Virus record (IMG/VR): IMGVR_UViG_3300028025_000928
Location: 1 to 24,081 of that record
Source of the DNA: a virus
Reading direction: 5' to 3' (one strand)
Length of the DNA: 24,081 nucleotides
The stretch's first letter is position 1; each line of letters begins with the position of its first letter. The notes under the pieces are model-generated. The model saw only the letters and a list, made by a program, of their open reading frames with translations, made no database searches and was not told the origin of the DNA. The position numbers and the translations under genes were made by a program. Shown here piece after piece: positions 2,090 to 24,081 of the stretch.

Positions 2090-2462
2090 AATAACCAAAA
2101 TCGTTCTAGAAGCCAAAGGGCTTGTAGCAGATGAAAAGCGGATTAAACAAACTATCCCAATTTGGTGGGTAAACCCAAGAAAAAAAGAAAAAGGTGGACT
2201 CAGGCTTACTGAGCAAGGGTTCGAATGTCTGCAACAGGCAGATATCAAATGCTACGAAATTAGATTTGACGAGCCCATTTTCTTTACTAACAAATTAGCT
2301 ATTTGGATTGATCAAAATATGGACTGTCCATTTTACTTAAACAATAAACGTATTTGGGTATTTGGAGAAAAAATGGCTGTCCAATTAGTGTTGTTTTCTG
2401 GCAACATTGCAAAGTTCCAAAGAGCTAGAGAAAGATTCACAGAAAAACAAAAAAACGCTTGA
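2073..2462 (+). CDS. Conserved T4-like phage protein of unknown function, 129 aa
   Basis: A soluble 129-residue protein with a GGLRLTEQGF segment near residues 40-50 and a later VFGEKMAVQLVLFSG stretch near 95-110. From memory these segments recall a hypothetical protein found in many T4-like cyanophages; this is not verified. The WWVNPRKKEKGG region is basic and may bind nucleic acid. No catalytic residues can be named. The start overlaps the previous gene, and the ribosome binding site is weak, so expression probably depends on coupling. Its stop codon TGA lies inside the -35 box of the next promoter. Confidence 0.75.
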   Translation: MNPKHEITKIVLEAKGLVADEKRIKQTIPIWWVNPRKKEKGGLRLTEQGFECLQQADIKCYEIRFDEPIFFTNKLAIWIDQNMDCPFYLNNKRIWVFGEKMAVQLVLFSGNIAKFQRARERFTEKQKNA

Positions 2463-2487
2463 CAAGAGACAAGATCTTTGCTATAAT
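2459..2487 (+). promoter_or_regulatory. Consensus sigma-70 promoter for the MoxR-type ATPase gene
   Basis: TTGACA at 2459-2464 and TATAAT at 2482-2487 are both perfect, with an optimal 17-bp spacer. Transcription should start near 2494, giving a leader of about 46 nt. The -35 box overlaps the stop codon of the upstream gene. This predicts use by the unmodified host RNA polymerase, so the downstream gene could be expressed early. Confidence 0.9.
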
Positions 2488-2494
2488 TAACGTA

Positions 2495-2509
2495 CTGTAA
2501 AACATACAG
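2495..2509 (+). promoter_or_regulatory. Short hairpin at the predicted 5' end of the ATPase mRNA
   Basis: CTGTA (2495-2499) and TACAG (2505-2509) form a 5-bp stem with a 5-nt loop right after the predicted start site of the consensus promoter. It could protect the 5' end of the message. Too short to be sure. Confidence 0.3.
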
Positions 2510-2539
2510 CTTCAACAGTTTTTTTAAAGAAAGTAGATT

Positions 2540-3622
2540 ATGTCCGAAAAAATGTCAGCTAATCGCACTGTTAGCCCTAACGAAGCCAAAGCGGCTATTC
2601 GTAAGTGTATCAAAAAGCAACGCCCTGTGTTTATGTGGGGCCCCCCTGGTATTGGCAAATCCGATATTGTTAAACAAATCGGTGATGAACAAGAACGTGA
2701 AGTTATTGACGTTCGTTTGAGCTTGTGGGAACCCACTGACATTAAAGGTATTCCATATTACAACTCCAATTCTAATTCAATGACATGGGCTCCTCCTGCA
2801 GAATTGCCCACTGATCCAGAATCTACTGCAATTCTGTTCTTGGACGAGTTGAACTCTGCGGCTCCTGCTACACAGGCGGCGGCCTTCCAGTTGGTGTTGA
2901 ACCGCCGTGTTGGTACTTATGTACTGCCAAAAGGTGTGTCAATTGTTGCCGCTGGTAACCGTGAAGGTGACAAAGGTGTAACTTATCGTATGCCTGCTCC
3001 GTTGGCTAATCGTTTCTTGCACGTTGAACTCCGTTGCGACTTTGATGACTGGCACCAGTGGGCTGTTACTAACCGTGTTCACGAACAGGTTGTAGGTTAC
3101 TTGGGTTTCGCCAAGCAAGACTTGTATGACTTTGATCCTAAGTCTAGCTCAAAGGCATTTGCTACTCCACGTTCTTGGATGTTCGTTAGCGAACTGTTGG
3201 AAGAAGATGATGTTCCAGATAACACATTGACTGATTTGATTGCAGGTGCAGTCGGTGAAGGTCTTGCTGTTAAGTTTATGGCACACCGCAAGGTTGCAAA
3301 ACAGATGCCTAAGCCAGAAGATATTTTGGCAGGTAAGGTTAAGAAGTCTGAGATCAAAGAAATCTCAGCTATGTATTCTTTGACAATTAGTCTGTGCTAC
3401 GAACTTCAAGAAGCAGATCGTAAGAAGGCCAAGAACTGGGATTCTATGGCAGACAACTTCTTTGGCTTTATGATGGATAATTTCCCAACTGAACTAGTTG
3501 TTATGGGTGCAAAGGTTGCGTTGACTAACTATCAATTGCCATTCGATGCTAGTAAACTTGCCAACTTTGACAAGTTCCATGACAAGTATGGTAAGTACAT
3601 TATCCAGGCAATGGAAGGCTAA
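2540..3622 (+). CDS. MoxR-type AAA+ ATPase
   Basis: A 360-residue AAA+ ATPase, expected to couple ATP hydrolysis to remodelling of a partner protein or metal-containing complex. Walker A is GPPGIGKS at residues 34-41 and Walker B is ILFLDEL at 98-104 with D102/E103. A sensor-1-like segment VAAGN lies at 136-140, followed by the MoxR-like pattern of Asp/Gly, then MPAPLANRF with R158 as likely arginine finger. The C-terminal part (about 170-360) is helical and less conserved. MoxR ATPases normally work with a VWA-domain protein, and the very next gene encodes one, which strongly suggests a pair. It has its own perfect promoter and is closed by an intrinsic terminator before the partner, so the two can be transcribed separately. 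Only a weak AAAGAAAG ribosome binding site precedes the ATG. Substrate unknown. Confidence 0.92.
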   Translation: MSEKMSANRTVSPNEAKAAIRKCIKKQRPVFMWGPPGIGKSDIVKQIGDEQEREVIDVRLSLWEPTDIKGIPYYNSNSNSMTWAPPAELPTDPESTAILFLDELNSAAPATQAAAFQLVLNRRVGTYVLPKGVSIVAAGNREGDKGVTYRMPAPLANRFLHVELRCDFDDWHQWAVTNRVHEQVVGYLGFAKQDLYDFDPKSSSKAFATPRSWMFVSELLEEDDVPDNTLTDLIAGAVGEGLAVKFMAHRKVAKQMPKPEDILAGKVKKSEIKEISAMYSLTISLCYELQEADRKKAKNWDSMADNFFGFMMDNFPTELVVMGAKVALTNYQLPFDASKLANFDKFHDKYGKYIIQAMEG

Positions 3623-3626
3623 AATT

Positions 3627-3648
3627 GGACCCTGCGGGGTCCTTTTTT
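3627..3648 (+). terminator. Intrinsic terminator after the ATPase gene
   Basis: GGACCC (3627-3632) pairs with GGGTCC (3637-3642) around the tetraloop TGCG and is followed by six T residues (3643-3648). It starts 4 bases after the stop codon. This is a textbook Rho-independent terminator on the + strand. Confidence 0.92.
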
Positions 3649-3650
3649 AC

Positions 3651-3679
3651 TTGCTCTTTTGATAAATTGAATGTATAAT
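3651..3679 (+). promoter_or_regulatory. Probable sigma-70 promoter for the VWA gene
   Basis: A perfect TATAAT lies at 3674-3679. The best -35 at 17-bp spacing is TTGCTC (3651-3656), which keeps only the TTG half. The site lies immediately after the terminator and upstream of a good ribosome binding site, as expected for a restart of transcription. The transcript would start near 3686. It is weaker than the promoter before the ATPase gene. Confidence 0.65.
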
Positions 3680-3694
3680 AGTATTATCGCAACT

Positions 3695-3699
3695 AGGAG
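3695..3699 (+). promoter_or_regulatory. Strong ribosome binding site AGGAG
   Basis: AGGAG ends 5 bases before the ATG at 3705 and fixes the start of the VWA/metallopeptidase gene. It contrasts with the weak site before the partner ATPase gene, which suggests different expression levels for the two proteins. Confidence 0.8.
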
Positions 3700-3704
3700 T
3701 TATT

Positions 3705-4961
3705 ATGTCCGTAATGAAAGCAGAAAAGCAAAAGAAACAAGATTGGGTAGGCAAAGAGTTTAGTGCCGCAGAAAAAGCAAAGATTCTCGACAAGCTGATT
3801 ACAGCTCGAGTTGGTTTGTTGTTGCGTCATCCATTCTTTGGTAACCTTGCTACACGACTTAAAATGGTAGATGCCAGTGACTGGTGTCATACACTGGCCA
3901 CAGATGGTCGTAACTTTTATTTCAACTATGGTTTTGTAAATAAACTCACTCCTAAAGAAGCAGAGTTTGGTTTTGCACACGAAGTCCTACATAATGTATT
4001 TGATCACATGGGACGTCGTGATAGCCGAGATCCCCAGTTGTCTAACATTGCCGCTGACTTTGCTACCAATCAAATTCTTAAAGATGAACGCATTGGTACA
4101 GTGCCTAGCTTTATTAAAATTTTCCAAGATGACAAATATCGTGGCATGAGCTATGAACAGATCTATGATGACCTTTATGAGAAAGCAGAAAAGATTGACA
4201 TTGGTTCATTGGGTGAGTTGTTGGACGAACACTTAGACGGTGAAGGTGATGATGAAGGTGATGACGGAGAAGATGGGAACAAAGACGGCAAAGGTCGCCC
4301 ACGTTTGACTGCAGAAGAAAAGAAACAGATCCGCGATGAGATCAAAGAAGCAATGGTTGCGGCTGCTCAGAGTGCCGGAGCAGGTCGTGTTCCAGCAGGT
4401 GTTCAGCGTATGATCAAAGACTTCACTGAACCTAAAATGGATTGGCGTCAACTGTTGCGTATGAATATTCAAAGTATTCTTAAGAGCAATTTCAGCTTTA
4501 GCCGCCCTAACCGCAAGTCACAGCATAGTGGTGCTATCTTGCCAGGCATGACTAATGACGAAACTATTGACGTTTCTATTGCTATTGACATGTCAGGTTC
4601 TATTAGTGACGCAATGGCTAAGGACTTCTTGTCAGAAGTTAAAGGCATTATGGACGAGTACGTCGACTTTAAATTGGATTTGTGGTGCTTTGATACTCAA
4701 GTATACGGTTATGCCCAGTTCACTGGTGACACCGCAGATGAAATTATGAGCTACGAATGCAAAGGTGGTGGTGGTACTGACTTTGATGTAAACTTTGATT
4801 TTATGAAGAATGAAGGTATTGAGCCTAAAAAGTTTATCATGTTTACAGACGGGTATCCATGCGGTAGCTGGGGAGATGAAGAATACTGCGATACTTTGTT
4901 CATTGTACACGGCAACGAAACCATAGTTTCCCCATTCGGCCAGACTGCCTATTATAAATAA
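3705..4961 (+). CDS. Metallopeptidase-like plus VWA-domain protein (MoxR partner)
   Basis: A 418-residue two-domain protein. The N-terminal domain (about 20-165) carries AHEVLHNVFDH at residues 91-101, a zincin HExxH core with a further His at 101, as in the putative metallopeptidase family paired with VWA domains (DUF2201 type; family name from memory). A strongly acidic Asp/Glu/Gly linker spans about 178-195, then a helical segment. The C-terminal VWA domain (about 285-418) has a complete MIDAS: DMSGS at 295-299, T358 after four glycines, and TDG at 381-383, so metal-dependent protein binding is likely. It follows the MoxR-type ATPase gene but has its own promoter and a strong ribosome binding site. 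Inferred role: adaptor and possibly protease acting with the ATPase on host or virion complexes. Whether the zinc site is catalytic is unknown. Confidence 0.88.
   Translation: MSVMKAEKQKKQDWVGKEFSAAEKAKILDKLITARVGLLLRHPFFGNLATRLKMVDASDWCHTLATDGRNFYFNYGFVNKLTPKEAEFGFAHEVLHNVFDHMGRRDSRDPQLSNIAADFATNQILKDERIGTVPSFIKIFQDDKYRGMSYEQIYDDLYEKAEKIDIGSLGELLDEHLDGEGDDEGDDGEDGNKDGKGRPRLTAEEKKQIRDEIKEAMVAAAQSAGAGRVPAGVQRMIKDFTEPKMDWRQLLRMNIQSILKSNFSFSRPNRKSQHSGAILPGMTNDETIDVSIAIDMSGSISDAMAKDFLSEVKGIMDEYVDFKLDLWCFDTQVYGYAQFTGDTADEIMSYECKGGGGTDFDVNFDFMKNEGIEPKKFIMFTDGYPCGSWGDEEYCDTLFIVHGNETIVSPFGQTAYYK
4953..4960 (+). promoter_or_regulatory. T4-type late promoter box TATAAATA
   Basis: An exact TATAAATA overlaps the last codons and stop of the VWA gene. 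By T4 spacing, transcription would start near 4966, 8 bases before the ATG at 4974. That leaves a very short leader holding AGG-like bases. An AT-rich genome will contain such octamers by chance, so this is plausible but not proven. Confidence 0.5.
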
Positions 4962-4973
4962 AGTAGGTATATA

Positions 4974-5267
4974 ATGTCACTAAATAGAGGGACAGTTAAT
5001 GCGTTAAATGTTTTGGGATTTAGGAAGCTATCCTTTATTCCAGAACATTTTGCCAGACTCTCTATAGATCATAGGATAGATGTTAAGTCCGTAGAACATT
5101 GGATTGAATACAATCTTAACAGTAGGTATTCAATTTGTAGAAACTACGGGTTGGATCATTCTAGAAAGGTTATCGAAATTACAGAGATCGGTCTAGAAGA
5201 TGCTAAAGAACTAACTATGTTATCATTAGGGTGTCAACATTTACATAAGAAAAAGGAATTATTTTAA
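4974..5267 (+). CDS. Hypothetical phage protein, 97 aa
   Basis: A basic, probably soluble protein with several His residues, among them a CQHLHKKK cluster at the C-terminus. The middle part (about 30-60) reads as helix (VKSVEHWIEYNLNSRYS). The two cysteines and clustered histidines could bind metal, but no known motif is seen. AGTAGG lies a few bases upstream of the ATG. It follows an exact late-type box, and the next gene begins one base after its stop codon, so it probably leads a small cotranscribed group that runs into thymidylate synthase. Confidence 0.7.
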   Translation: MSLNRGTVNALNVLGFRKLSFIPEHFARLSIDHRIDVKSVEHWIEYNLNSRYSICRNYGLDHSRKVIEITEIGLEDAKELTMLSLGCQHLHKKKELF

Positions 5268-5268
5268 A

Positions 5269-5511
5269 ATGGAAAATACAGAACAAGCACAAACCGCTAG
5301 TCAACCAGTCGGCGGAGAAGCTCAACCGGCTGCACCCGAGTTAACAATTACAGATTTAATCAACATCAGATCAGTAGTAGATGTTGCAGTTCGCCGTGGT
5401 GCATTCGGAGCCAATGAAGCGTCAGCAGTCGGGGCGGCCTTTGATAGATTGAATACGTTCTTAAATGCTGTTGCACCAGCTAAGACCGAAGAACAACCGC
5501 CAGCACAATAA
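5269..5511 (+). CDS. Conserved small phage protein, 80 aa
   Basis: The N-terminal 25 residues are a low-complexity Glu/Gln/Ala/Pro tail, and the C-terminal dozen residues are similar. Between them a compact helical core (about 25-68) contains LTITDLINIRSVVDVAVRRG and later ASAVGAAFDRLNTFL. From memory this core is common in T4-like marine phages, where its function is not known. AAGGA at 5253-5257 lies 11 bases upstream of the ATG. The gene sits between two phage genes on the same strand, with 12 bases to the next. An oligomerising core with disordered ends is a reasonable reading of the sequence, no more. Confidence 0.75.
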   Translation: MENTEQAQTASQPVGGEAQPAAPELTITDLINIRSVVDVAVRRGAFGANEASAVGAAFDRLNTFLNAVAPAKTEEQPPAQ

Positions 5512-5523: not shown

Positions 5524-6135
5524 ATGAAACATGTGGGAAAAATGAAAAACAACTCTGCTAGAATTGCAGTAGCATATAGAACACTACCAGGTGATTCAGC
5601 AAGCGCCTTAGTTATTGGTACCTCTGGACTACCAGATGCATATCACGATTCGTTGATGGCATTGATTGAGAGCGATGCAGGACAACAGGCTAACGAACTA
5701 GCCGATGTATTAGCAACACGTAGGTTTCCGGACGGTGGCGTAATGCTCCAGTGGCTACATGCAGGCGGACACTTGAAAAAAGTTCCTACTACTCTTGTGC
5801 TAATGACTCCAAACAATCAAAGTTTAATTCCCCTCAACGAATTAAATCAAGTGATTGCTGAACAAAAAGGTGTCACTGTTGATGAACTAGCTGTTACTGA
5901 AGATGGTAAGCCTGCTACAAAGAAAGAATTAGCTGCCGCTAAAAAGAACAAAGAAGAAATCATTGTTACCAGCGAAGTTGAAGAAAATGTTAGTAGCAAA
6001 GAAATGACTCCTACTGAGATGCGCTCAAGAGCAGATAAACTCTTTAAAGAAGCGCAGGCTCTACGCAAGCAGGCGGATGCAGTTGATCCACCTAAGAGCA
6101 AGAAAAAAGAAGCTGTAGTAGTGGATATTGAATGA
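5524..6135 (+). CDS. Conserved T4-like phage protein of unknown function, 203 aa
   Basis: The N-terminal domain (about 1-110) is an ordered alpha/beta-looking region with YRTLPGDSASALVIG, LPDAYHDSLMALIES and RRFPDGGVMLQWLH. From memory similar sequences occur in T4-like marine phages as proteins of unknown function. The C-terminal half (about 120-203) is highly charged, Lys/Glu-rich and probably a helix or coiled coil (MRSRADKLFKEAQALRKQAD) ending in a disordered basic/acidic tail. There is no signal peptide or enzyme motif. The stop overlaps the thymidylate synthase start by ATGA, so the two are translationally coupled. A structural, DNA-binding or scaffolding role is possible, but nothing in the sequence decides it. 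Confidence 0.78.
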   Translation: MKHVGKMKNNSARIAVAYRTLPGDSASALVIGTSGLPDAYHDSLMALIESDAGQQANELADVLATRRFPDGGVMLQWLHAGGHLKKVPTTLVLMTPNNQSLIPLNELNQVIAEQKGVTVDELAVTEDGKPATKKELAAAKKNKEEIIVTSEVEENVSSKEMTPTEMRSRADKLFKEAQALRKQADAVDPPKSKKKEAVVVDIE

Positions 6136-11734: not shown

Positions 11735-13417
11735 TTAACTTCCGTATCTGTAAATTTTAGGTCTCGGCCAAGCTAATCCTGTACTAGGACGAAGGCCTTG
11801 ATTTACTTTAGGACCTACTTGTCCTGCTTCAGGACGTTCTTTATAAAAATATAAAAATCTATTAGTAGATCCTTGAAGATCAGTGAAATCCGAGGGGCCA
11901 CCTGTACCTGCTGTAATCTGATTAGTCTTAGCGTGAGTATGGATATACTCTACAGCCAAAGATTGATTTAATCTAGGCCAAGTTTCTGCTAGACATGCTA
12001 ACACTCCGGCTACTTGAGGGCTTGCCATTGAAGTTCCGCTGTATTTGGTTATATAGTATGAAGTATCTCTTAGATCATTAGAATAGACGCCTAACGTAGA
12101 ATTTACGCTACTCATTATGAATCTACCAGGAGCATAAACATTTACTCTAGGGCCGCAGTTGCTTGAAACTACTTTTGAATCATCGAATAAAGAACTTATG
12201 GCACCAACTGTTACAGCATTTTCTACAGATGTTATTGTTCCTCGCATATAATAATAATCAGTTACGCCAGCGGTAAAATAATTGTTATAGTCATCAGAAG
12301 TTGAAACAGACGGGTTTGCAATTTTAGAATAAGCATTACCTGCGGCGCCAACAACAATAACACCAGCGTTCATCAAATCAATTAAGTCTTGTTCAGTGCT
12401 TGTATTTCTTCTACTAGTAAAAGTAAACCCGCCTGAGTTAAAAATTCCATACCCTAAAAGTTGAGATGAAGTAAATGGTCCGCTAAAAGTATTTCCTCTA
12501 TATCTAACGGTGGTAATTTCAGTAATATTAACACTATCAAATACTCCGTAACTATGATTTGTTATTGTAGGATTTTTAACTCCTGTAATAGGATTAACAG
12601 ACTTACGCTGATGCCATACTTTTATATAATCTGTAAGGAAAGACGAATATCCAGGGAAAAAAGTTGCATTAGGGTTAGTAGAATAAGGATTTATATTATA
12701 GATATTTGCATCATGCGCCCAACCTTGTGTATTACCTGCAAGTATTCCAGCAACGTGAGCTCCGTGGTCATTATCAGATGTTCTGGCAGAGTAACCGTTA
12801 CTATCGGTAAAGGGATAAGTTGGGTCAACATAAGGTCCGTACTGATAAACTGTTCGAGATGGATCTACTGTTCCGACTACTAAAGAATCAAGTTCAAACC
12901 AGTTGTATTGATTTACTCGTGAGCCGCCCGTGCCGTTAACATTAACTGCAAATTCAGGATGATCGGGATTCATATGTCCGTCTACAACTACTACATCAAC
13001 GTGTTTTCCACTAGCAGTTACATTGATGGTACCGGAGGCATTGGGAACTCCGTTTGATCCCCAACTGGCTCGTTGTTGGCCTTCAACTGATCTTAAGAGG
13101 CCCCAATTCTTATACGTAGACGATACCGAATTAGATTTATTCCAAAAAGTACTAGACTGCGTCCAGCTTGGTCGAAGTTCTAGCCCCTCTTCTTCAAGAG
13201 ATAATTCAACTGCCATGACCCTAGGATCTTTTCGAATTAACTCAGCTTCATCGCTGGTTAATCTATAATGAGTATTTCTACTAACTGGTCGACGGATAGC
13301 TACAGGAACTGCCCTATCTGGAATGAAGAGGGCGCCACCTGGGGTTTCTAAATCGTCATAAAAAGAATCTAGATCCTCATGTTTGTGTAAAGTTACAACA
13401 TATTCGCGCTCTTGCAT
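11735..13417 (-). CDS. Subtilisin-like serine protease (S8 family) with propeptide-like N-terminus
   Basis: A 560-residue endopeptidase with a complete subtilase triad: D146 in DVVVVDGHM, H218 in DNDHGAHVAGI and S463 in GTSMASPQVAG, plus the oxyanion Asn N361 in GAAGN. Residues about 4-75 (REYVVTL to VMAVEL) read like an inhibitor-I9 propeptide that folds the enzyme and is then cleaved. There is no signal peptide, so it is probably not exported by Sec; a virion or intracellular role fits better. Relative to typical S8 enzymes there is an insert of about 50 residues between D146 and H218, and a Ser/Thr/Tyr-rich one before N361. The gene sits among tail-fibre genes with 1 base to the upstream fibre gene, and the GGA-type ribosome binding site is weak. 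Likely tasks are processing of fibre or adhesin proteins, or digestion of host surface proteins. Substrate unknown. Confidence 0.92.
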   Translation of the reverse strand: MQEREYVVTLHKHEDLDSFYDDLETPGGALFIPDRAVPVAIRRPVSRNTHYRLTSDEAELIRKDPRVMAVELSLEEEGLELRPSWTQSSTFWNKSNSVSSTYKNWGLLRSVEGQQRASWGSNGVPNASGTINVTASGKHVDVVVVDGHMNPDHPEFAVNVNGTGGSRVNQYNWFELDSLVVGTVDPSRTVYQYGPYVDPTYPFTDSNGYSARTSDNDHGAHVAGILAGNTQGWAHDANIYNINPYSTNPNATFFPGYSSFLTDYIKVWHQRKSVNPITGVKNPTITNHSYGVFDSVNITEITTVRYRGNTFSGPFTSSQLLGYGIFNSGGFTFTSRRNTSTEQDLIDLMNAGVIVVGAAGNAYSKIANPSVSTSDDYNNYFTAGVTDYYYMRGTITSVENAVTVGAISSLFDDSKVVSSNCGPRVNVYAPGRFIMSSVNSTLGVYSNDLRDTSYYITKYSGTSMASPQVAGVLACLAETWPRLNQSLAVEYIHTHAKTNQITAGTGGPSDFTDLQGSTNRFLYFYKERPEAGQVGPKVNQGLRPSTGLAWPRPKIYRYGS

Positions 13418-14262: not shown

Positions 14263-17200
14263 TTAATATCCTTCTAGAGGTTCTCCGTTTTCGTCTGTTA
14301 AAGCATTGCTATTTTCAAGGAGCACTTTTTCTCCTCCATAGAAATATATGTCAGGTAGATCTGCTGGTCTTGAACGTAAGAAATTAGCTTGTGTAGAAGT
14401 ACTTGTTAGTAACGATGTAGCTTCCGTTCCTGTCCACAATGCACCTTCTTTCTTAACTATAGTTATTCTAGTTCCAGTTGTGATATCTTCAGCAATATTT
14501 AATGTTATCTGCTGAGTCGATGTAGTTATAGTAAACTCCGGAGGGTATACCAATGTACTACTTGCTGAATCATAATAAGAAACAGATTTGTCATGTACAT
14601 TCAACGAAGTCTTTCTTAGTTGGCGGCCACCAAAATATACTTCAATTTGATCTATAGCATTTGTAAGAGTTGATAGTGTAATTCCATCCCCTGCATGTGT
14701 TGATGTATTGATAGAAAAAGTAGCCGTGTTACTTACATTACTAATAATGTAAGTCGTTGTGTTCGAACTAGGAATATGCTGAATCAAGCTATAATCGATT
14801 GTTGGAATAATCTGTCGTATACTCTGATCAATAACAGTAGTACCAATATCAGAAAATTTTGCAGGTCCTGTACCTAATGTCGATCTACGCAGGCCGCTCA
14901 ATATATTTCCATCTTTGGCAGTATATTCAATACGCTCGCCGTCAATTACAACAACTCCTGGTAAATTTCTGCCAGGATTTGGCTGCAATAAATGATTGCC
15001 ATCTTCTACATAAATCTTGTCGTCTGTATATTGTAAAGGTTGAGTTAATTTTGTAGAGAAATAATCTGACAGACGTCTAAACTGTTGTCTACCAAACATA
15101 TCTTTAAAGATTTTATAACCTAATACTGTAGTTCCGTATGATAGAGGATTAATTACAACAACTACTATATCATCAGTTTCTTTGACATTTACAAATTCTG
15201 ATAATTCAATAGTTTTCATATCTTCAAGAAGCATGTAATCAAAACCAGCAATCAATGGCTTGCTAGCCAGCGTTACCCATACATAGTTTTCATTAATTGC
15301 AGGATAGGCCAATACTAAAAGGTCGTTACCCTTAAAGCGCTCAGTCCTCATCATCATGTTATCATGATCAGTGAATGAAGTTACTTTGATTGTTGCCGAC
15401 GTTACAGGCGATGTTAACTGCAATCTATTACCAGTTACCATATAATCATAGTCAATTAATGATATAATTGCAATGGCATCTCCGTTAACAATTCCAGGTT
15501 TAACTAGAGTAATTTCACGAGATAATCCGTTCACTGTAAAATCATATCCAGGTCGTAACTCAATTCCGTTAATGTACACCTTAACATTATCTAATGTATA
15601 AGTGCGAGGTAGATCAGAATTTTTAGGATCAATAGGATAAGTCATTATACCACTACGAATTTTATAATAGCTCGCCCATGGTGGTAACATTCTATATCTG
15701 CTAGGATCTGTTATTTTTTCAACTATAACTTGTTCACTAACTGGTTCGATTCCGCCCGGGGCACTATCAAGAATTAATTCAGATGTTGCAGTAGATCCAA
15801 CATTAAAGAACTGTTCATGGACTCTATTAAAGTTAGGATATAGTGTATCAAAGAACCATACCTGCAAATTATATGTATTGCTACTCAAACCATTAACTGT
15901 AACCATTGCTCTATTATTGACAGAACTAGTCGGAGTTAATACGTAACCTTGAACACTTATATCGTTTGGAGAACTTGAAGGAGGTACTTCAAATTCATTC
16001 AACAATACATATACACTCTGAACTTCGTCAAAGGGTAATAAACTAGAAACTGATATTGTACCAGTATTACTAGCTGTAATTACTTCTGTTGCTACGTAAT
16101 TACTATCTACAACAACATCAGACCCTGCGGTAACAAAAGAATATCCTACCAATATATCTGCAGTCTGTGTGTTCACTACAATAGTGTTACCGAATATAGA
16201 ATAAACTTCTCGATCAGTCGGAGTAAACGAACCTTCATTAGTGACTCGCTCAAATGTCTTTCCATTAGCATAAACCCTAAATCCTAAAGGATTATCAGGC
16301 AACCAAGATATAGTGGCTCTTGTTATTCCTTTTCCGTCTGCAATAAATGCACCAGACACTACCATAGGATATGATGGTGGTTCAGCAACAGTATAAACAT
16401 TAATGCCTATACTATCTCGAACATGTCCTGGTACACACTCTTCTGGAGCATAGCTGTCGACTGAATTTAAAAAGTTATTTCCATCAATTGAAATATCTTC
16501 CGGTTTGTAACCTACAGATGTATCTAATATATTTCCGCCACTTATTGCACTATCCAAACTATTATAATTAGTATTGTAGGAATAGAATTCCAATTCGGTA
16601 GCTCCGAATAATCGAACATCTAAATCTCCGGATATAGTAGTTGTTGAATTAACATGTCTCAATGAAACTATAGCTCGATCTAATCCATCGACAGAATTAG
16701 TAATACTATACCATACTGAATTAGTACTAGTAGATAGAATTTCTGTAGGAACTGTACTTAACGATACTTCTGCTCGAACAATGTTGTTAAATTTAGCAAA
16801 AGTTTGAACTGATGCAACGCTAGTATTTGAGAAAACATCCGTAACTCTATCTAACAATTTATTAGATGCAGACAGTCTATTAATAATACTGCTGAGTCTA
16901 AATGCTGCTCCCGAATTTAAAGTAGTAGCAGTACTGCTCAATTCTATTTGGGAGGTTACTTCAACATAATTACTTGTACATTTCTTAACTCTAAGAACTT
17001 GATTAAATCCAGGATCTAAACTAGCAACGGCTGTTCCTGAAGAGGTGCTAGTTGTTCCACTTAAAGTCACTGTCGGTGGGTTAGTATATCCCATTCCAGT
17101 GATATCCATAACTACCTGCGTTACTGTGAATCCATCTTGTATAACGTGAGCAGTTGCCTGTCTACCGCTAGGAAGATCAGGTGGAGAAATTGTAACAGAA

Positions 17201-20200
17201 ACTAATTCTGTAGTCGATGTTGATACAACAGGTGGATTAGTTGATACACCAATACCGACACCGTAACCATACAAACTATTAACTCCGCTCACTGCTATAA
17301 AGTCGTCAACATTGACTGCATTATGGAATGAATCAGTTGTTTCAATAATTATGGTAGATCCAGATGCTGTACCAGTAGAATATATACGATCTATTCGCGT
17401 ATCTGATAAATCAAGCGTACTGATATATACTCTATTTCCCGACACAGATTCTACAACAGTGTGTTCTTTAAAAATTTGAGTAGAAGTATTTAAAGGTACA
17501 ATAGTCTGTCCTGGAAAAATACCATCTGACGACACTAGATCAATATAAGTTCTATGAGGATCTAAATTACTAATAACTTTAGCTAAAGTATAATTGTCAA
17601 CTGTATCTCCCCAAGGAGCAGTGTCGTATTGAGTTCCTGTACTATCCCAATTAGGCGATTGATCAAACATTAATCCTTGTATTGATATCCCTGGGTATTC
17701 AGCACCTTCCATTAATAATGGCAATTCTTTACCCGGCATTAAATCAGTAGGATTGTATAAGCTATTAATTCTATCTACGGCATTGTATAAATCAATATGC
17801 TTTTTATATGTTACTTTAAAAGTTTGACCATAATGTGGTACTCTATTTAAGAATACAAATTTAGCATAATGTCTAATATAACCCGGTAACTCTCCAGAAC
17901 GCTCTGTGTTCAAGAAATATTTGTAACGGTGATCGACCATTGTCTCACCTTCCCAAGAATACTTAGGGAAAGTTTGCGCTACGTCTATACCAGTTTGAGC
18001 TACTTTAACTTGATAATACTCTACAGTATAGTCAGAGCCAAATACCAGTTTTCCATCTAACAAAGGAGTAATTGTTTTCTTGTCAGGACTTGCCAACCAA
18101 GTTAACGTAAACTTATCTGTGATGCCATCGCATATAAACTCATCTGTTACAGTTAAGTCATTAACATCGCCCACTGTAGAAGTTCTATCAAATTTTATTC
18201 CAATGATATTCTTTCTAACAGTATCATTGGCCATAATGACTGATACTCTAGCAGTGTCATCACCTACATCGCTATCAGAAATAGTTACAATTGGTGGAAT
18301 TACATAACCAGATCCCGGATTGGTTACTAGTACTTTGTATACTTCGCCGTTTCTAATGTATGCTTCAGCAGTAGCTCCTGAACCAGTGTCACCTGTAGCA
18401 GTAGTAATAGTCACCGTAGGTCTCTGAGAATATCCAGAACCTGCATAACCTACTTCAATTGCACTAACATAAAACTTATAATTGTCAGCCCAATCTTTCC
18501 AAGGACGTACTCCTAGTAACGGGTCTCCTAGGCCAACAACTGCAAGAGAATCAGTGACCGTATTATAGTAAGAAGGTAGATCAAAATCTGTTATGTCTAA
18601 CGGCAATCCTTCAGATGTATTTTCTTGGTAGCTATACTTAGAAGTATAACTTCTTATCTTTGTATGATACGGTTTAACTTCGTTGATATAATTTTCAAAA
18701 TATTCTTCGTTGTTTAATTTATAAACTGGGCGTTGATCCAATGTTCCAATATTGTTAAACACGTTAACAAAAGAAGTTTTAAAAGACCAGTCTAATAACT
18801 TTTGCTCAGTCAATGCATATTTTACTGCGGCAAAGAAGAATAAGTTCCAATTTACTTTTAATGAATTGATAAAGATATTATTCTTTAGTGCTAAAAGAAT
18901 ATAATATAATTCTTGATCTGGAATTTGATCATATAAAGTTTCTTCAATTGTTGCACTATCATAAGCATACTTGCCTATGTTGTAATCCCATAAGGTATCT
19001 AATAACTGTATAGTACCTTGTTCTCTATAAACAATATCATAAGAAGGAATATAGTTCCCGTTGGCAGATACCTTTTGCAAAATAGCATATTTGCCATCGC
19101 CGATATTTTTAACTTTTACATAGTCGCCAGTGGCTATTGCCGTCAATGATCCGATTTCAAATAAATCTGATATTGTGTATTGAATAGATTTATATGAGTC
19201 ATAGTTGGTACCCACCCAATCAACTGTTTTCCAGTATAAGGGAGTATTATATTTCTGTGTCTGTACTTTAATCCATGTTCTTAAAGAATAATCAAAGTTA
19301 TGTTTTGTCCATCTATTTCCGTAATCAGAATTTACTTGTACAATAACGCTGTGAGGGCGAACTGATACTTTAGCTGTTATCAAACCTGTATCATCAGTTA
19401 CATATCCGCTACCAGCATTAACAATTGTAGTGGCTACTACTTTGCCTTCGCTGTCTAATTCTGCTAGAATTTCAGCATCAACGCCGCCGGATCCAGCAGT
19501 AGGAGTAATTGTAATCTTTGGAGATACAGTGTAACCGAAACCTGGATTTGTAACAACAACACTTCTTATTTTACCATTCTCTGCAAAACATTGTAGTTCT
19601 GCTCTGACAAAATTAATTGTAAAGACTTCGTCAAGTGCTGCTTGATCTTCAACTACTGCATCATATTCATATGAAAGAAGCGCAGGAATTTCTTCTACCT
19701 TATTAAGATTTTCAAAAGAATAATTTCCTACAATTCTATTTTCAAGCAATACAGAATTTGCAAAAGAAATCAAGTTACGCAATGCAGACAATCTATCTTT
19801 GAACAATGTCTGCTGAGGACGTATACCAATTCCGTATCTATTTCTATAGGTAAGATTCTTGGCAGGTACTTCATTACCAAAACTGTCGTGTCCTAATAAA
19901 CTATCAAATAATTTTTTCTCTAATAAAGTATTAGGTACACTAGTATGATCACCTTCATTTAACAGCAACCATTCAGTGTGCTTAGGAGTTGTAGGATTAT
20001 CGTCAGTACTAATATTTGCATTGATTCTATTTCCAGTCAACATCGATTGAACATTAGCAAATGCTACAGCATTAGGTGACAATACTTCAACAAATTTTAA
20101 TCCGTTGGCTACTGGATCTGCAATGTAACTAGCAACCTGGAAACTACTTAATCTACGATTCTTAATTCCAGGCAAGGTAACTTTGTTTTTAACCCAGAAA

Positions 20201-23200
20201 TAATAAACATTCTCAAATGAACCTGTTACATTATTAAACACTTGCTTAACTGAGATAACACTGTTGTCAGGATATTTTGGCTGGCCACTAATACTGTTAG
20301 TCAATCCCTTAGTAGTGTCGGCTTGAGCAGCCCATTCACTAGGTAATAGATCTGACTTTACCCATTCATAGACATCTATGCTTGCGCCTGGGAATAGTCT
20401 TCCCCAATTGTTCTTTCTGAAAACTTCGTCGCCTTGTTCGTACCAGGTATACTTGGCAGTGCTTAGATCCCACCATAGTTCACCAACGTGTTCATCCAAC
20501 CAGTTTGTTTCAGTGTTAACAATAGTGCCAGCAAGACCAATAGAATAAGTAGCAGGATCAAAAGCAGCTTTGAATTTTAATTCTTGTTCAGCAATGCCTG
20601 CAATTTTACCTTTAACTGGATCAATAACATCAAGGTAATCGACAATCTCTTCTTTGACAGTATCTATTAATGCTACACGACCAATAGTTGATACATCAAC
20701 TGTATCTGTTTGCTCTCTTAACACTTTCCAACTTTGTTGTGATGTGTCAATTTTACTAAACATGAACAATTTAGAAGCATCAGTTGTTGGTGATGGTAAC
20801 AAATTACTTTGATTTGTCGGAGCACCAACAAATACTTCATTATTAGTTACTACGACTGCACTGCCGTATCTGCTACCTGCTGTTATCGTGTATACAGCTG
20901 GCTCAAGTGTAAAGGTTGTATATCCTGTTCCCCAAACTTCAGTTGATGCATTTTTTGCATATATTGTTAAATTGCGAATACCTGCTGGCAATCTACTTGT
21001 GTCAATATAAAAATAATGAGTACGTATTGGAGAATTTTGAATTGTTCCGCCATACGGTCCGTAGGTTAAGTCGTCAACCTGGCCAATGATATAATTAATA
21101 TCAACATCGGTGCTGAATACAACAACTATTGTAGTTCCAATATTTGTTACAGTTTCAGATAGTATAATATTAGAAATCACAGGAGCTGTAGGTTCGTTAG
21201 CAATAACATTTAATGGAAGAGTATTTACTGAGGTAACATCTTCGATAATTCTAACATCGTTTAATTCATCAGCTTGTATAAACTTATTGCCTATCTTATT
21301 GTATAGATAAACGGTGCCGGCATCGGGCAATGATTCTCTAAACTTAGTAGAATCATTGTCAAAAGTAGTTTGTCCAGAATTATTATTTTCGTCAAATAGT
21401 TGCTCTTGACTTCGTGTTTTGCCTAGAGCACTGATACCGATAGTTTGCTCATCTTTACTAATAGATATAGCGTAACCAAATTTCAAATCATCAGTTGGTA
21501 ACGGATTACTAATAATCTGATCTAAAACATATAACCCTAAGTTATTTTTATATACTGCTACCTTACCGTAGGGCTCGTTTGTATTCTTAATTTCAGGTGC
21601 TGAAATTAGCAAATAATTTCCGCTGTCTGAAACTGCAATGTCCTGTCCAAATCTTCCGCCTGCGCCAAACGGTGAAGTAACAGTTTGAGAGAATGATAAG
21701 TTAGTGTTAAACAACTGAACAATACCAGTATCATTAGAGTACCCAGGAGCACTAATAGCGAATCCAATTGAACAACCGGCAATCTTATAACCCCACTGAT
21801 CGCCTGCCGACAATGTAATCGAAGAAGTAGAGTAGAGGTTAATACCATGAACATGCGATGTTACAGTGGAAGATGGAGTAATGCTGTATGCATAGACAGA
21901 TCCAGTTCCTGCAAATGTCGTAGATCCAGGGGCACCTACCAATAACGTTGTAGACGTAGTAGCAGCCACTTGATTAATGCAAACGGAATATCCAAATTTA
22001 GAATTATCTGCAGGAGCAGGATTCGCTATTACAATTTCAGTAAATGCTGGGAAATCTTCTTGGCGGCTATCAATTTTAACTAAGCCTTCATTAACATATG
22101 GTCTAGCATAACCAGTACCGGTACTAAAAGTTAAAACATTAGTGCCAGTAGCCCTAACATAACTTGATTCAGGAGCACCAGTGACATATAATTTTTTAGC
22201 AATATCATATTGCAACGAATATCCAAACTGTGTAGAACTTGTGGCACTGGCGTAAGTTTTTAGATTGTTATTTAAAACATAATCGTACTTGCGAGTCCAA
22301 ACACCATTGACTTTGTTAAAGACCTTAACACGCCCCCAACTATAAGTTCCATCAATTCTCCAGTCTGGGGCAGATACTAACATTACAGGACTATCATCTG
22401 ATGCAAAAATAGATGCGCCAAACTTTTGACCTGCAGGAATGTTTACTGTATCAGATACCCTAGCAGAATAGTTTTTAATTTTTTCATAGACCTGCCACTT
22501 GCCGTCAGTTCCACTATCAACCCAAACTTTATCGCCGGCATTTAATTTTAACAAATCTGAAACTTCAGCTAGACTAGCAAGACTACTGTATCTTGCTTCT
22601 TCAAACTTGTATAAAGAACCGTAGTTTAGTAGCTCTTCATTTTCAATACTAGACAATGAAGTAGAAACAGTGAATTGATTTGTGTTAACGATAGAGTTAA
22701 CAATGTAAACTCCATTAACTTGATCATTGAATCTTACTATAGAAATAACTTCACCGGCTTGAAGATTGTGATGACTGTCAGTTACAAAAGTAATTTCACT
22801 GGCAGGAGCACTAACAAACACTCCGGTGATTTCTGCTAGTTGTTTAGTATAACGATATACTGTCCAGTCTCCGTTTTCTTGGAAGCCCAACCAGATGGTG
22901 TCACCTTCTTGTATTGCAGAATTATTAGCAATGTCTAACAAACTGTTTTTATTGTAGGCAGTAGAGGTAACATCATCTGATCTCACATACCCAGCTGTGG
23001 TTAATTTTAAATTATTATCAGCCCAAGTACTTGAATAAGACCCAATAGTATTAGCAGTAGAATAATCAACTGGTGTTAGTAACAAAGACGAAGTTGTTAT
23101 ATAATTGATTAGTGGATTAGCATCAGTTGGTACTGAGTCAACAAATTTAACTAGGTAAGGATTTTCTAAGTAAGTACCTTCTTCTAAAGGAAACTCAATT

Positions 23201-24081
23201 TCATTTAATGTTTCAAAACTTCCGTAATGACCTATTCTGAATGCCCATTCTTCTTTGAAAGATAAGTCGCCCTTGTTAGTAAATTCTCCAGCTTTAGATA
23301 ATTTATCAACGGCATTTTTAGTGCCTTTGTCTTTGATCATACCTTGATAAAATTTATATTGACTAATAGGATTAGTAAAAATATTATTCAAATATGTTCT
23401 AGGAGTGTACCCAGTAAGGTGTTGAGCTAGCTGTTGCTGGCTGTAATCAAAGTTGTCAATGTCGAGACTATAGAAGTCTTCGAATTGATTAATTTTATAA
23501 TCAAAGTTTGGTAATAGCTGAGGAATTGGTTTGCTAGATAACTGGACCCATTCTGTAAAATTAAACGTAGCACTGGCAACTACTGTTACCAATGACTCGT
23601 AGTACCTACCATTATAACGTACAACCATGCCTGGTAGATATTTTTTGTAAGGTTGCCAATCAGAAATTTCAACATTATCATAAACAAAGCCTGGACTGAA
23701 TAAATCGCCGTTCCAGTTCTTGGTTCTAAATCCTGAAAGTTTAATTCTTCGTTGTTTGTATCCAGTTTCTATATCATAGATAGTATCATTGAATACTGTA
23801 AAGTTGTTGAACACCATTCCGTGCTCTTTTTGTACAGAATTCAAAGTAGCAAAGAACAGTCCCTCGTTGGCGTCTTTGGTTTTAATTGTACATACAGTAT
23901 CTTCACGAGCCATGGTAAATCTATCTGCAGGATAAGGCTTACCGTCAGCTTTTAGCAAACTATATTCATATTTGGTACCTGTAATATTATCTACTACAGA
24001 ATTAGGAAAGTTGTATTTGATATAATTTGCAAAAGGACTTAGGGTAATTAAATTACCATCAGCCCAATTTTGAGTTGTCCA
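14263..24081 (-). CDS. Giant multidomain tail-fibre/adhesin protein, partial (at least 3272 aa)
   Basis: The frame is open from the right edge of the window to TAA at 14263-14265, so the N-terminus lies outside. A TTG at 23956-23958 is not the start, because 41 sense codons run upstream of it. Order of parts, by window-internal residue: about 1-540 mixed structural sequence with WADG- and aromatic-rich segments; about 543-1113 seven integrin-like propeller repeats with an Ig-like insert; about 1500-2360 three GxGY repeat units with intervening helical segments such as KPYHTKIR; about 2450-3272 repeated beta modules of the VYING-GYDF kind, then GVVVIDGERIEYTA-LSGLRR, then a short acidic tail. 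No membrane segment or signal peptide is visible. The size and position with fibre genes suggest a long virion adhesin or distal-tail component. The precise function is unknown. Confidence 0.85.
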   Translation of the reverse strand, partial: WTTQNWADGNLITLSPFANYIKYNFPNSVVDNITGTKYEYSLLKADGKPYPADRFTMAREDTVCTIKTKDANEGLFFATLNSVQKEHGMVFNNFTVFNDTIYDIETGYKQRRIKLSGFRTKNWNGDLFSPGFVYDNVEISDWQPYKKYLPGMVVRYNGRYYESLVTVVASATFNFTEWVQLSSKPIPQLLPNFDYKINQFEDFYSLDIDNFDYSQQQLAQHLTGYTPRTYLNNIFTNPISQYKFYQGMIKDKGTKNAVDKLSKAGEFTNKGDLSFKEEWAFRIGHYGSFETLNEIEFPLEEGTYLENPYLVKFVDSVPTDANPLINYITTSSLLLTPVDYSTANTIGSYSSTWADNNLKLTTAGYVRSDDVTSTAYNKNSLLDIANNSAIQEGDTIWLGFQENGDWTVYRYTKQLAEITGVFVSAPASEITFVTDSHHNLQAGEVISIVRFNDQVNGVYIVNSIVNTNQFTVSTSLSSIENEELLNYGSLYKFEEARYSSLASLAEVSDLLKLNAGDKVWVDSGTDGKWQVYEKIKNYSARVSDTVNIPAGQKFGASIFASDDSPVMLVSAPDWRIDGTYSWGRVKVFNKVNGVWTRKYDYVLNNNLKTYASATSSTQFGYSLQYDIAKKLYVTGAPESSYVRATGTNVLTFSTGTGYARPYVNEGLVKIDSRQEDFPAFTEIVIANPAPADNSKFGYSVCINQVAATTSTTLLVGAPGSTTFAGTGSVYAYSITPSSTVTSHVHGINLYSTSSITLSAGDQWGYKIAGCSIGFAISAPGYSNDTGIVQLFNTNLSFSQTVTSPFGAGGRFGQDIAVSDSGNYLLISAPEIKNTNEPYGKVAVYKNNLGLYVLDQIISNPLPTDDLKFGYAISISKDEQTIGISALGKTRSQEQLFDENNNSGQTTFDNDSTKFRESLPDAGTVYLYNKIGNKFIQADELNDVRIIEDVTSVNTLPLNVIANEPTAPVISNIILSETVTNIGTTIVVVFSTDVDINYIIGQVDDLTYGPYGGTIQNSPIRTHYFYIDTSRLPAGIRNLTIYAKNASTEVWGTGYTTFTLEPAVYTITAGSRYGSAVVVTNNEVFVGAPTNQSNLLPSPTTDASKLFMFSKIDTSQQSWKVLREQTDTVDVSTIGRVALIDTVKEEIVDYLDVIDPVKGKIAGIAEQELKFKAAFDPATYSIGLAGTIVNTETNWLDEHVGELWWDLSTAKYTWYEQGDEVFRKNNWGRLFPGASIDVYEWVKSDLLPSEWAAQADTTKGLTNSISGQPKYPDNSVISVKQVFNNVTGSFENVYYFWVKNKVTLPGIKNRRLSSFQVASYIADPVANGLKFVEVLSPNAVAFANVQSMLTGNRINANISTDDNPTTPKHTEWLLLNEGDHTSVPNTLLEKKLFDSLLGHDSFGNEVPAKNLTYRNRYGIGIRPQQTLFKDRLSALRNLISFANSVLLENRIVGNYSFENLNKVEEIPALLSYEYDAVVEDQAALDEVFTINFVRAELQCFAENGKIRSVVVTNPGFGYTVSPKITITPTAGSGGVDAEILAELDSEGKVVATTIVNAGSGYVTDDTGLITAKVSVRPHSVIVQVNSDYGNRWTKHNFDYSLRTWIKVQTQKYNTPLYWKTVDWVGTNYDSYKSIQYTISDLFEIGSLTAIATGDYVKVKNIGDGKYAILQKVSANGNYIPSYDIVYREQGTIQLLDTLWDYNIGKYAYDSATIEETLYDQIPDQELYYILLALKNNIFINSLKVNWNLFFFAAVKYALTEQKLLDWSFKTSFVNVFNNIGTLDQRPVYKLNNEEYFENYINEVKPYHTKIRSYTSKYSYQENTSEGLPLDITDFDLPSYYNTVTDSLAVVGLGDPLLGVRPWKDWADNYKFYVSAIEVGYAGSGYSQRPTVTITTATGDTGSGATAEAYIRNGEVYKVLVTNPGSGYVIPPIVTISDSDVGDDTARVSVIMANDTVRKNIIGIKFDRTSTVGDVNDLTVTDEFICDGITDKFTLTWLASPDKKTITPLLDGKLVFGSDYTVEYYQVKVAQTGIDVAQTFPKYSWEGETMVDHRYKYFLNTERSGELPGYIRHYAKFVFLNRVPHYGQTFKVTYKKHIDLYNAVDRINSLYNPTDLMPGKELPLLMEGAEYPGISIQGLMFDQSPNWDSTGTQYDTAPWGDTVDNYTLAKVISNLDPHRTYIDLVSSDGIFPGQTIVPLNTSTQIFKEHTVVESVSGNRVYISTLDLSDTRIDRIYSTGTASGSTIIIETTDSFHNAVNVDDFIAVSGVNSLYGYGVGIGVSTNPPVVSTSTTELVSVTISPPDLPSGRQATAHVIQDGFTVTQVVMDITGMGYTNPPTVTLSGTTSTSSGTAVASLDPGFNQVLRVKKCTSNYVEVTSQIELSSTATTLNSGAAFRLSSIINRLSASNKLLDRVTDVFSNTSVASVQTFAKFNNIVRAEVSLSTVPTEILSTSTNSVWYSITNSVDGLDRAIVSLRHVNSTTTISGDLDVRLFGATELEFYSYNTNYNSLDSAISGGNILDTSVGYKPEDISIDGNNFLNSVDSYAPEECVPGHVRDSIGINVYTVAEPPSYPMVVSGAFIADGKGITRATISWLPDNPLGFRVYANGKTFERVTNEGSFTPTDREVYSIFGNTIVVNTQTADILVGYSFVTAGSDVVVDSNYVATEVITASNTGTISVSSLLPFDEVQSVYVLLNEFEVPPSSSPNDISVQGYVLTPTSSVNNRAMVTVNGLSSNTYNLQVWFFDTLYPNFNRVHEQFFNVGSTATSELILDSAPGGIEPVSEQVIVEKITDPSRYRMLPPWASYYKIRSGIMTYPIDPKNSDLPRTYTLDNVKVYINGIELRPGYDFTVNGLSREITLVKPGIVNGDAIAIISLIDYDYMVTGNRLQLTSPVTSATIKVTSFTDHDNMMMRTERFKGNDLLVLAYPAINENYVWVTLASKPLIAGFDYMLLEDMKTIELSEFVNVKETDDIVVVVINPLSYGTTVLGYKIFKDMFGRQQFRRLSDYFSTKLTQPLQYTDDKIYVEDGNHLLQPNPGRNLPGVVVIDGERIEYTAKDGNILSGLRRSTLGTGPAKFSDIGTTVIDQSIRQIIPTIDYSLIQHIPSSNTTTYIISNVSNTATFSINTSTHAGDGITLSTLTNAIDQIEVYFGGRQLRKTSLNVHDKSVSYYDSASSTLVYPPEFTITTSTQQITLNIAEDITTGTRITIVKKEGALWTGTEATSLLTSTSTQANFLRSRPADLPDIYFYGGEKVLLENSNALTDENGEPLEGY
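14870..15600 (-). other. Beta-module and IDGERIEY region near the giant protein's C-terminus
   Basis: Two successive modules share the pattern strand, loop, Gly-Phe/Tyr-Asp-Tyr/Phe, strand, charged loop, Ile/Val-rich strand: VYINGIELRPGYDF then AIAIISLIDY, and WVTLASKPLIAGFDYML then DIVVVVINP. A region with LSDYFSTKLTQPL, VVVIDGERIEYTA and LSGLRRSTLGT follows. From memory this last part is common in large structural proteins of marine T4-like phages. Boundaries approximate. Confidence 0.5.
17015..17215 (-). repeat. GxGY repeat, unit 3 (degenerate), in the giant protein
   Basis: Only the second half is well kept (ITGMGYTNPPTVTLSG, then GTAVASLD). The first half is replaced by a Pro/Ser-rich segment (TISPPDLPSG). 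Degenerate copy of the same module. Confidence 0.55.
18230..18475 (-). repeat. GxGY double repeat, unit 2, in the giant protein
   Basis: GYAGSGYSQRPTVTIT is followed by VLVTNPGSGYVIPPIVTIS, with GSGATAEAY between them. This is the clearest copy of the module. Confidence 0.7.
19350..19565 (-). repeat. GxGY double repeat, unit 1, in the giant protein
   Basis: VVVTNPGFGYTVSPKITITP is followed about 40 residues later by TTIVNAGSGYVTDD. The pattern of N-x-G-x-GY then P-x-hydrophobic-T-hydrophobic is repeated elsewhere in the protein and suggests a beta-rich module. Confidence 0.65.
20740..22450 (-). repeat. Seven FG-GAP-like repeats (integrin-type beta-propeller) in the giant protein
   Basis: Each unit starts with an aromatic-Gly pair and a strand, then a loop ending in a Gly/Ser-Ala-Pro-like motif: FGASIFA-LVSAPDW (near 22430), FGYSLQY-VTGAPES (22225), FGYSVCI-LVGAPGS (21995), WGYKIAG-AISAPGY (21790), FGQDIAV-LISAPEI (21645), FGYAISI-GISALGK (21485), YGSAVVV-FVGAPTN (20868). 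A strand such as KVAVYKN or TVYLYNK follows most units. Seven such units make a complete propeller. Between units six and seven lies an extra Ig-like segment of roughly 110 residues. Positions are approximate. Confidence 0.75.

Follow-up and report, generated by a model that had tools for sequence, protein, structure and literature searches.

An AAA+ ATPase gene and a peptidase-VWA gene in a viral genome fragment

The window analysed here is the whole 24,081-base stretch of the IMG/VR viral record IMGVR_UViG_3300028025_000928, a genome fragment whose related contigs reach 259 kb and for which megablast returned no close relative among named phages. It carries, 82 bp apart on the plus strand, a gene for a 360-residue AAA+ ATPase of the MoxR/midasin type (2540-3622) and a gene for a 418-residue protein that combines a zinc-metallopeptidase domain with a VWA domain (3705-4961), referred to below as the partner. 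Both open reading frames (ORFs) lie where the original prediction, made from the sequence alone, had placed them. Close loci and the clade refer throughout to IMG/VR relatives, with 80 contigs in the linkage count; conserved residues were counted in alignments of 99 ATPase and 90 partner relatives. The named-phage survey comprised 18 loci and that of bacterial genome contigs 22 loci.

The ATPase exceeded the Pfam cut-offs for AAA_3 (31.7 against 27 bits) and AAA_5 (30.9 against 22 bits) and matched phrog_1297, named 'ATPase', at 1.7e-103. Its Walker A motif GPPGIGKS (residues 34-41; 2639-2662, +), Walker B motif ILFLDELNSA (residues 98-107; 2831-2860, +) and putative arginine finger R158 within PLANRF (3011-3013, +) are intact, as predicted, and K40, D102, E103, the sensor Asn140 and R158 were each present in 99/99 relatives. 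Midasins were the best solved relatives in the PDB profile search (7e-29), far above other AAA+ proteins. E. coli RavA (24.8 bits) and YehL (16.7 bits) matched the ATPase across the AAA core and were placed outside the phage-bacterial ATPase group in the tree. These profile matches assign the ATPase to the MoxR/midasin branch, and the name MoxR is correct at superfamily level, yet the pair is not RavA-ViaA. A placement outside the MoxR-like families did not emerge from the profile searches, which kept the protein in AAA_3/AAA_5.

The partner matched PF13203 (DUF2201_N, a putative metallopeptidase family) at 2.5e-41, PF09967 (VWA-like) at 3.2e-14 and phrog_1314 at 1.6e-108, in agreement with the metallopeptidase-VWA assignment made beforehand. 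In its zinc site HEVLHNVFDH (residues 92-101; 3978-4007, +), H92, H96 and H101 were conserved in 90/90 relatives and E93 in 89/90, the sole exception being phage Atu_ph07 with HQxxH (L090:10328-11617). Beside this HExxHxxxxH motif, Asp118 and Asn122 were also kept in 90/90, so that the zincin pattern of an HExxH motif with a further candidate ligand is present. The metal-ion-dependent adhesion site (MIDAS) of the VWA domain, D-x-S-G-S (residues 295-299; 4587-4601, +), is completed by T358 (4776-4778) and D382 (4848-4850); the five residues D295, S297, S299, T358 and D382 were invariant in the aligned relatives, confirming the intact MIDAS that had been noted. The AlphaFold model of the partner (predicted local distance difference test, pLDDT, 79; predicted template modelling score, pTM, 0.54) showed a C-terminal domain with a VWA/integrin-I-type fold, and the N-terminal domain gave weak profile matches only, to MJ1213 (0.005) and M48 peptidases (0.02). 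From N4 to the jumbo phages and bacteria, the active-site residues of both proteins were invariant or nearly so.

The label 'HNH endonuclease' that PHROG gives to phrog_1314 recurs in many phage records of RefSeq, that of N4 gp25 included. That the partner is an HNH endonuclease deserves practically no credence and was rejected, as no HNH Pfam match was found at E up to 0.1, the DUF2201_N and VWA matches are strong and the model shows a VWA fold. Since no HNH domain was found in the partner, the PHROG and RefSeq name is wrong.

Linkage, transcriptional layout and neighbourhood of the pair

The two genes are linked and co-evolving. The partner gene lies directly downstream of the ATPase gene on the same strand in 73/80 related IMG/VR contigs; of the remaining seven, six break off no more than 181 bases from the ATPase, and L028 has an insertion. 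When the partner served as query, the ATPase was found no more than 10 kb away in 22/23 loci, the other locus ending at a contig edge. Both genes were present in 17/18 named phage loci (N4, PA5oct, Phosso, rV5_ev168, phage G, phiFa, XaC1, S-TIM5, Atu_ph07, SCTP-2, CR3, Vibrio 2.275.O, GAP32, XC38, 4L372D, Pag-Yong1 and fENko-Kae01), with the partner of rV5 several kb from the ATPase on the opposite strand. Phage phiTY18, with an ATPase and no VWA gene, was rejected as an exception because its ATPase groups with RavA/YehL and is of another MoxR type. A tblastn search of INPHARED found the ATPase in 807 records and the partner in 739, with nearly identical genus lists, and the same pair occurred on bacterial genome contigs in 19/22 loci. 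The expected adjacency and co-occurrence of the genes are borne out. Besides jumbo phages, the carriers of the pair include N4-like podoviruses, phages of the rV5/CR3 type, cyanophages of the S-TIM5 type, phage G, Thermus phage phiFa and bacterial chromosomes. A few of the bacterial loci, L124 and L125 among them, cluster with jumbo phages and may stem from phage contigs that were binned into genomes.

Over 60 divergent loci, the distance matrices of ATPase and partner were correlated with r = 0.91. In the close clade r was 0.75-0.84 for the pair, compared with 0.46-0.68 for either protein against seven neighbours; kinship raises all of these correlations, and the comparison with neighbour genes is the informative part.

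Several side observations concern the arrangement of the pair. The insertion in L028 is a radical-SAM-like ORF (CNFNCSFC; L028:2900-4004) directly behind the ATPase, in the usual position of the VWA gene. Inserts of about 270-520 bp between ATPase and VWA in L024, L054, L056, L063 and L066 encode a small conserved ORF (MAVKSWYLS...MFFTAP...YYIVKENY). Among the bacterial MoxR/DUF2201 pairs (L127-L145), a Marinobacter locus adds a double-AAA protein and an ADP-ribosylglycohydrolase, and a Ktedonobacter locus has LRV-repeat proteins.

Promoters were scored as matches out of 12 to a consensus, on the assumption of an E. coli-like sigma70. The ATPase gene is preceded by a perfect sigma70-type promoter, TTGACA-17-TATAAT (2459-2487, +), which overlaps the 3' end of the upstream gene p129; this promoter reached at least 9/12 in 75/75 loci and 12/12 in 37/85 loci. 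Behind the ATPase gene lies an intrinsic terminator, GGACCC-TGCG-GGGTCC followed by TTTTTT (3627-3642, +; -15.6 kcal/mol, z = -4.3). Terminators were found at this place in 70/74 clade loci, compared with 0-12% at nine other junctions of the gene block, and their hairpins comprised at least 51 different sequences, indicating conservation of the structure despite changes of sequence. The partner gene has a promoter-like site of its own, TTGCTC-17-TATAAT (3651-3679, +), whose register is conserved across loci, and the scan gave TTGATA-17-TATTAT (3659-3687) as an alternative. Promoter-like sites of at least 9/12 preceded the partner in 66/74 loci, compared with 6-32% elsewhere. The ATPase promoter was closer to consensus than the partner promoter in 47 loci and the reverse held in 14, these loci being related to one another. 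The two insulated transcription units that had been predicted from the window are real and conserved in the clade.

In deeper jumbo and T4-like lineages, terminators were found at 17/19 ATPase stops, compared with 23/207 other ORF stops. Many pairs in bacteria and S-TIM5-type cyanophages show 4-base overlaps or 3-6 base gaps, with terminators in 1/16 and 0/4, respectively, indicating that the insulated layout is characteristic of large-phage lineages. In the GenBank notes on PA5oct and fENko-Kae01, the ATPase is flagged as detected by mass spectrometry and the VWA protein is not. Thymidylate synthase is likewise flagged in fENko-Kae01, so the flag is read as a sign of abundance and is no proof of virion location. 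Together with the promoter and terminator pattern, these flags support indirectly the unequal dosage of motor and adaptor that had been suggested.

Four further genes accompany the pair, all on the plus strand. The small gene p129 (2073-2462), directly upstream of the ATPase, is conserved: it lies no more than about 120 bp from the ATPase in 57/59 close loci and is linked to it in 14 distant jumbo-phage loci. It had no Pfam or PHROG match, and tblastn against named phages found nothing. The AlphaFold model of p129 is well folded (pLDDT 88), and a role as MIDAS ligand with a ubiquitin-like fold was rejected, as Foldseek gave no PDB match and only uncharacterised phage proteins. The first gene behind the VWA gene, p97 (4974-5267), belongs to the same operon and was present in 44/44 close loci with enough downstream DNA; a terminator was found at the VWA-p97 junction in 2/60 loci, and none lies there in the window. 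Further downstream, p80 (phrog_13789; 5269-5511) and p203 (phrog_15894; 5524-6135) were each found in 44/44 close loci and also in 13 distant loci of jumbo phages, and the 53 INPHARED records found for p203 come from jumbo-phage groups that carry the pair. As third partner of the machine, p129, p97, p80 and p203 were rejected, none being common to N4-, rV5- or S-TIM5-type phages, and no neighbour gene was common to all phage groups examined. Elsewhere in the window, a subtilase (peptidase S8) gene (11735-13417, -; phrog_9158) lies amid structural and fibre genes, and 14263-23958 (-) encodes a 3231-residue predicted virion structural protein (phrog_10938).

Proposed mechanism and competing explanations

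For the pair we infer a scheme, covering its oligomeric state, its proteolysis and target, and the timing and dosage ratio, in which an AAA+ ring and a substrate adaptor carrying its own zinc protease would act as one machine. The MIDAS metal of the adaptor would grip an acidic side chain of the target protein, the adaptor would dock on the ATPase ring, which is presumably hexameric, and ATP hydrolysis would pull or remodel the target. The same logic has been described for midasin and CbbQO, where the AAA ring supplies the force and a carboxylate of the target is bound by the VWA protein through its MIDAS (PMC4660213). Coupling of motor and adaptor is regarded as very probable. The motor's own promoter and terminator would place it in excess over the adaptor, as would be the case if a single adaptor sufficed for a whole ring; CbbQO, with its MIDAS adaptor, has the stoichiometry CbbQ6CbbO1 (PMC4660213).

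Because the zinc motif is near-invariant, cutting is added to this scheme of MIDAS grip and ring pull. The HExxH domain would cut an exposed segment of the target, and proteolysis by the pair is considered likely. Alternatively, the HExxHxxxxH domain could bind zinc in a structural role or serve to hold a peptide, and the pair would remodel its target without cutting, like CbbQO or RavA-ViaA. These characterised MoxR/VWA pairs are indeed described as non-proteolytic, and the motif of Atu_ph07 is HQxxH, but the conservation of the catalytic Glu and the zinc His in the aligned proteins and in 21/22 bacterial loci argues against a chaperone-only function, as do the weak profile matches to MJ1213 and M48 peptidases; it is judged clearly unlikely.

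The likeliest use of such a motor and protease-adaptor would be in early or middle infection, where it would dismantle or activate a complex of the host, or one that phage and host share; the building of one virion part is the less likely use. The host-type promoters, the status of N4 gp24/25 as middle genes (PMC4193335) and the orthologous pairs on bacterial chromosomes point to a role outside virion building. An early or middle host-directed role is nevertheless put forward tentatively, with somewhat less than even confidence.

Drawing a parallel with p618/p892 of Acidianus two-tailed virus (ATV), Iyer et al. 2021 proposed a role in virion assembly, in which the pair would remodel and proteolytically process structural proteins during head or tail assembly (PMC7824862). 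ATV p618 is a virion component, is implicated in the development of the tail and binds p892, a VWA protein. In the phages compared here, tail-tube, neck and virion genes precede the pair in XaC1, GAP32 and fENko-Kae01, an Hsp20 gene lies upstream of it in S-TIM5, and roseophage virion proteins are encoded near gp24/25 homologues (PMC4193335); the mass-spectrometry flags on the ATPase in PA5oct and fENko-Kae01 are also consistent with assembly. However, thymidylate synthase is flagged as well in fENko-Kae01, and the middle-gene status in N4 and the bacterial orthologues fit assembly poorly. The genes around the pair in the window, and likewise in Phosso, Atu_ph07 and SCTP-2, are mostly nucleic-acid enzymes, and no structural protein family common to the surroundings of the pair was found across phage groups. 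Virion assembly is considered possible but unlikely.

A use in counter-defence or competitor exclusion, with the pair disabling a host defence or an incoming phage, is very improbable. In bacterial conflict systems, MoxR-VWA couples form core components (PMC7159879), and the Marinobacter relative lies near an ADP-ribosylglycohydrolase gene. Nevertheless, PADLOC, a defence-system library, gave no match of note, and the clade-wide presence and N4-like core-gene status of the pair are unlike the patchy occurrence of anti-defence genes. The bpMoxR profile reached 16.7 bits against a cut-off of 27, and identity with the MoxR-vWA-beta-propeller ternary conflict system was rejected on the same score.

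Overall, one motor and protease-adaptor machine that would act in early or middle infection on a host or shared complex is the best explanation, held with evenly balanced confidence. Several points weigh against it. The peptidase of Atu_ph07, the example given by Iyer et al., is probably inactive, judging from its motif. Unequal dosage is not universal, as the bacterial and S-TIM5-type pairs overlap or nearly touch and have no terminator. The promoter and correlation statistics are drawn from related sequences, and in XaC1, GAP32 and fENko-Kae01 the position of the pair directly behind tail or neck genes favours assembly. No biochemistry on the phage MoxR/peptidase-VWA family was found in the literature, and the main text of the CRISPRi-ART paper, in which essentiality data were sought, does not mention N4-like phages. 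In its most far-reaching form, which is doubtful, the explanation would make the pair a distinct class of energy-driven protease: a MoxR/midasin ring would act by way of a zinc protease that is a separate protein and is guided by its MIDAS. Bacteria and unrelated phages would have exchanged the pair, it would serve to take a host complex apart in early or mid infection, and in large lytic phages a terminator would have divided its operon for motor excess.

Comparison with known systems

The original prediction regarded the pair as little described, which did not hold. The pair is already known: Iyer et al. 2021 reported this MoxR/peptidase-VWA pair from jumbo phages of group 2.2, with virion assembly and proteolysis as its proposed role (PMC7824862), and Bacillus phage 0305phi8-36 was credited in 2007 with a two-subunit MoxR system. 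The window encodes the same two proteins, in the same domain order and in adjacent genes, with 36% (ATPase) and 44% (partner) identity to Atu_ph07; it differs in the catalytic Glu, which is Gln in Atu_ph07, and the distribution now extends far beyond jumbo phages. For this comparison the example accessions of that study, ASV44729.1 and ASV44728.2, were taken to be Agrobacterium phage Atu_ph07 proteins. We did not find it stated in the literature that the jumbo pair corresponds to N4 gp24-gp25, that it has bacterial relatives, that an insulating terminator is conserved or that the partner is misnamed. If the pair is a true ATP-driven protease, it would be a new phage route to rebuild a host or virion complex, and its conserved promoter-motor-terminator-promoter-adaptor layout provides a concrete, measurable dosage prediction.

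The analogy drawn beforehand with RavA-ViaA and CbbQ-CbbO stands for the MoxR superfamily; both are distant relatives only, without the peptidase. E. coli RavA-ViaA and YehL-YehP share a homologous AAA core and a VWA domain with MIDAS, whereas ViaA and YehP match the partner in the VWA domain only and lack HExxH. The 1497 bp gene of RavA encodes a protein whose match is restricted to the AAA core. Identity with RavA-ViaA was rejected on the unmatched C-terminal part of RavA and the HExxH of the partner. The rubisco activase CbbQ-CbbO likewise combines an AAA+ ring with one MIDAS adaptor and has a well-studied mechanism (PMC4660213), but CbbO has about 770 residues, an unrelated N-terminal region, no peptidase and rubisco as its target. 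The partner has 418 residues with DUF2201_N, no rubisco gene was seen among the annotated neighbours in the window, and this identity was rejected as well. Midasin (Rea1/Mdn1), the closest solved relative of the ATPase, joins an AAA ring to a MIDAS, but it is a single giant eukaryotic polypeptide with no protease domain in the published architecture (PMC4660213).

Among viral systems, ATV p618-p892 also consists of a MoxR ATPase and a VWA partner, which stimulates p618, and no other viral MoxR/VWA pair was found in the literature to have biochemistry; it differs in having no peptidase domain according to Iyer et al. (PMC7824862) and in the RavA-subfamily membership of p618. The MoxR protein of cyanophage S-CREM1 has been assigned to the CGN (CbbQ/GvpN/NorQ) subfamily (PMC9964418). 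N4 gp24 and gp25, two of the 14 genes that form the core set of N4-like phages (PMC4193335) and members of the Schitoviridae core, share with the present pair the families, the gene order and both intact active sites. They differ in their 29-31% identity, in lacking a terminator directly behind gp24 and in being middle genes of a podovirus. The pair thus represents N4-like core genes that are kept in many jumbo phages, with one half misnamed 'HNH endonuclease', and as the same system as the jumbo pairs, gp24-gp25 makes it testable in E. coli K-12 with phage N4.

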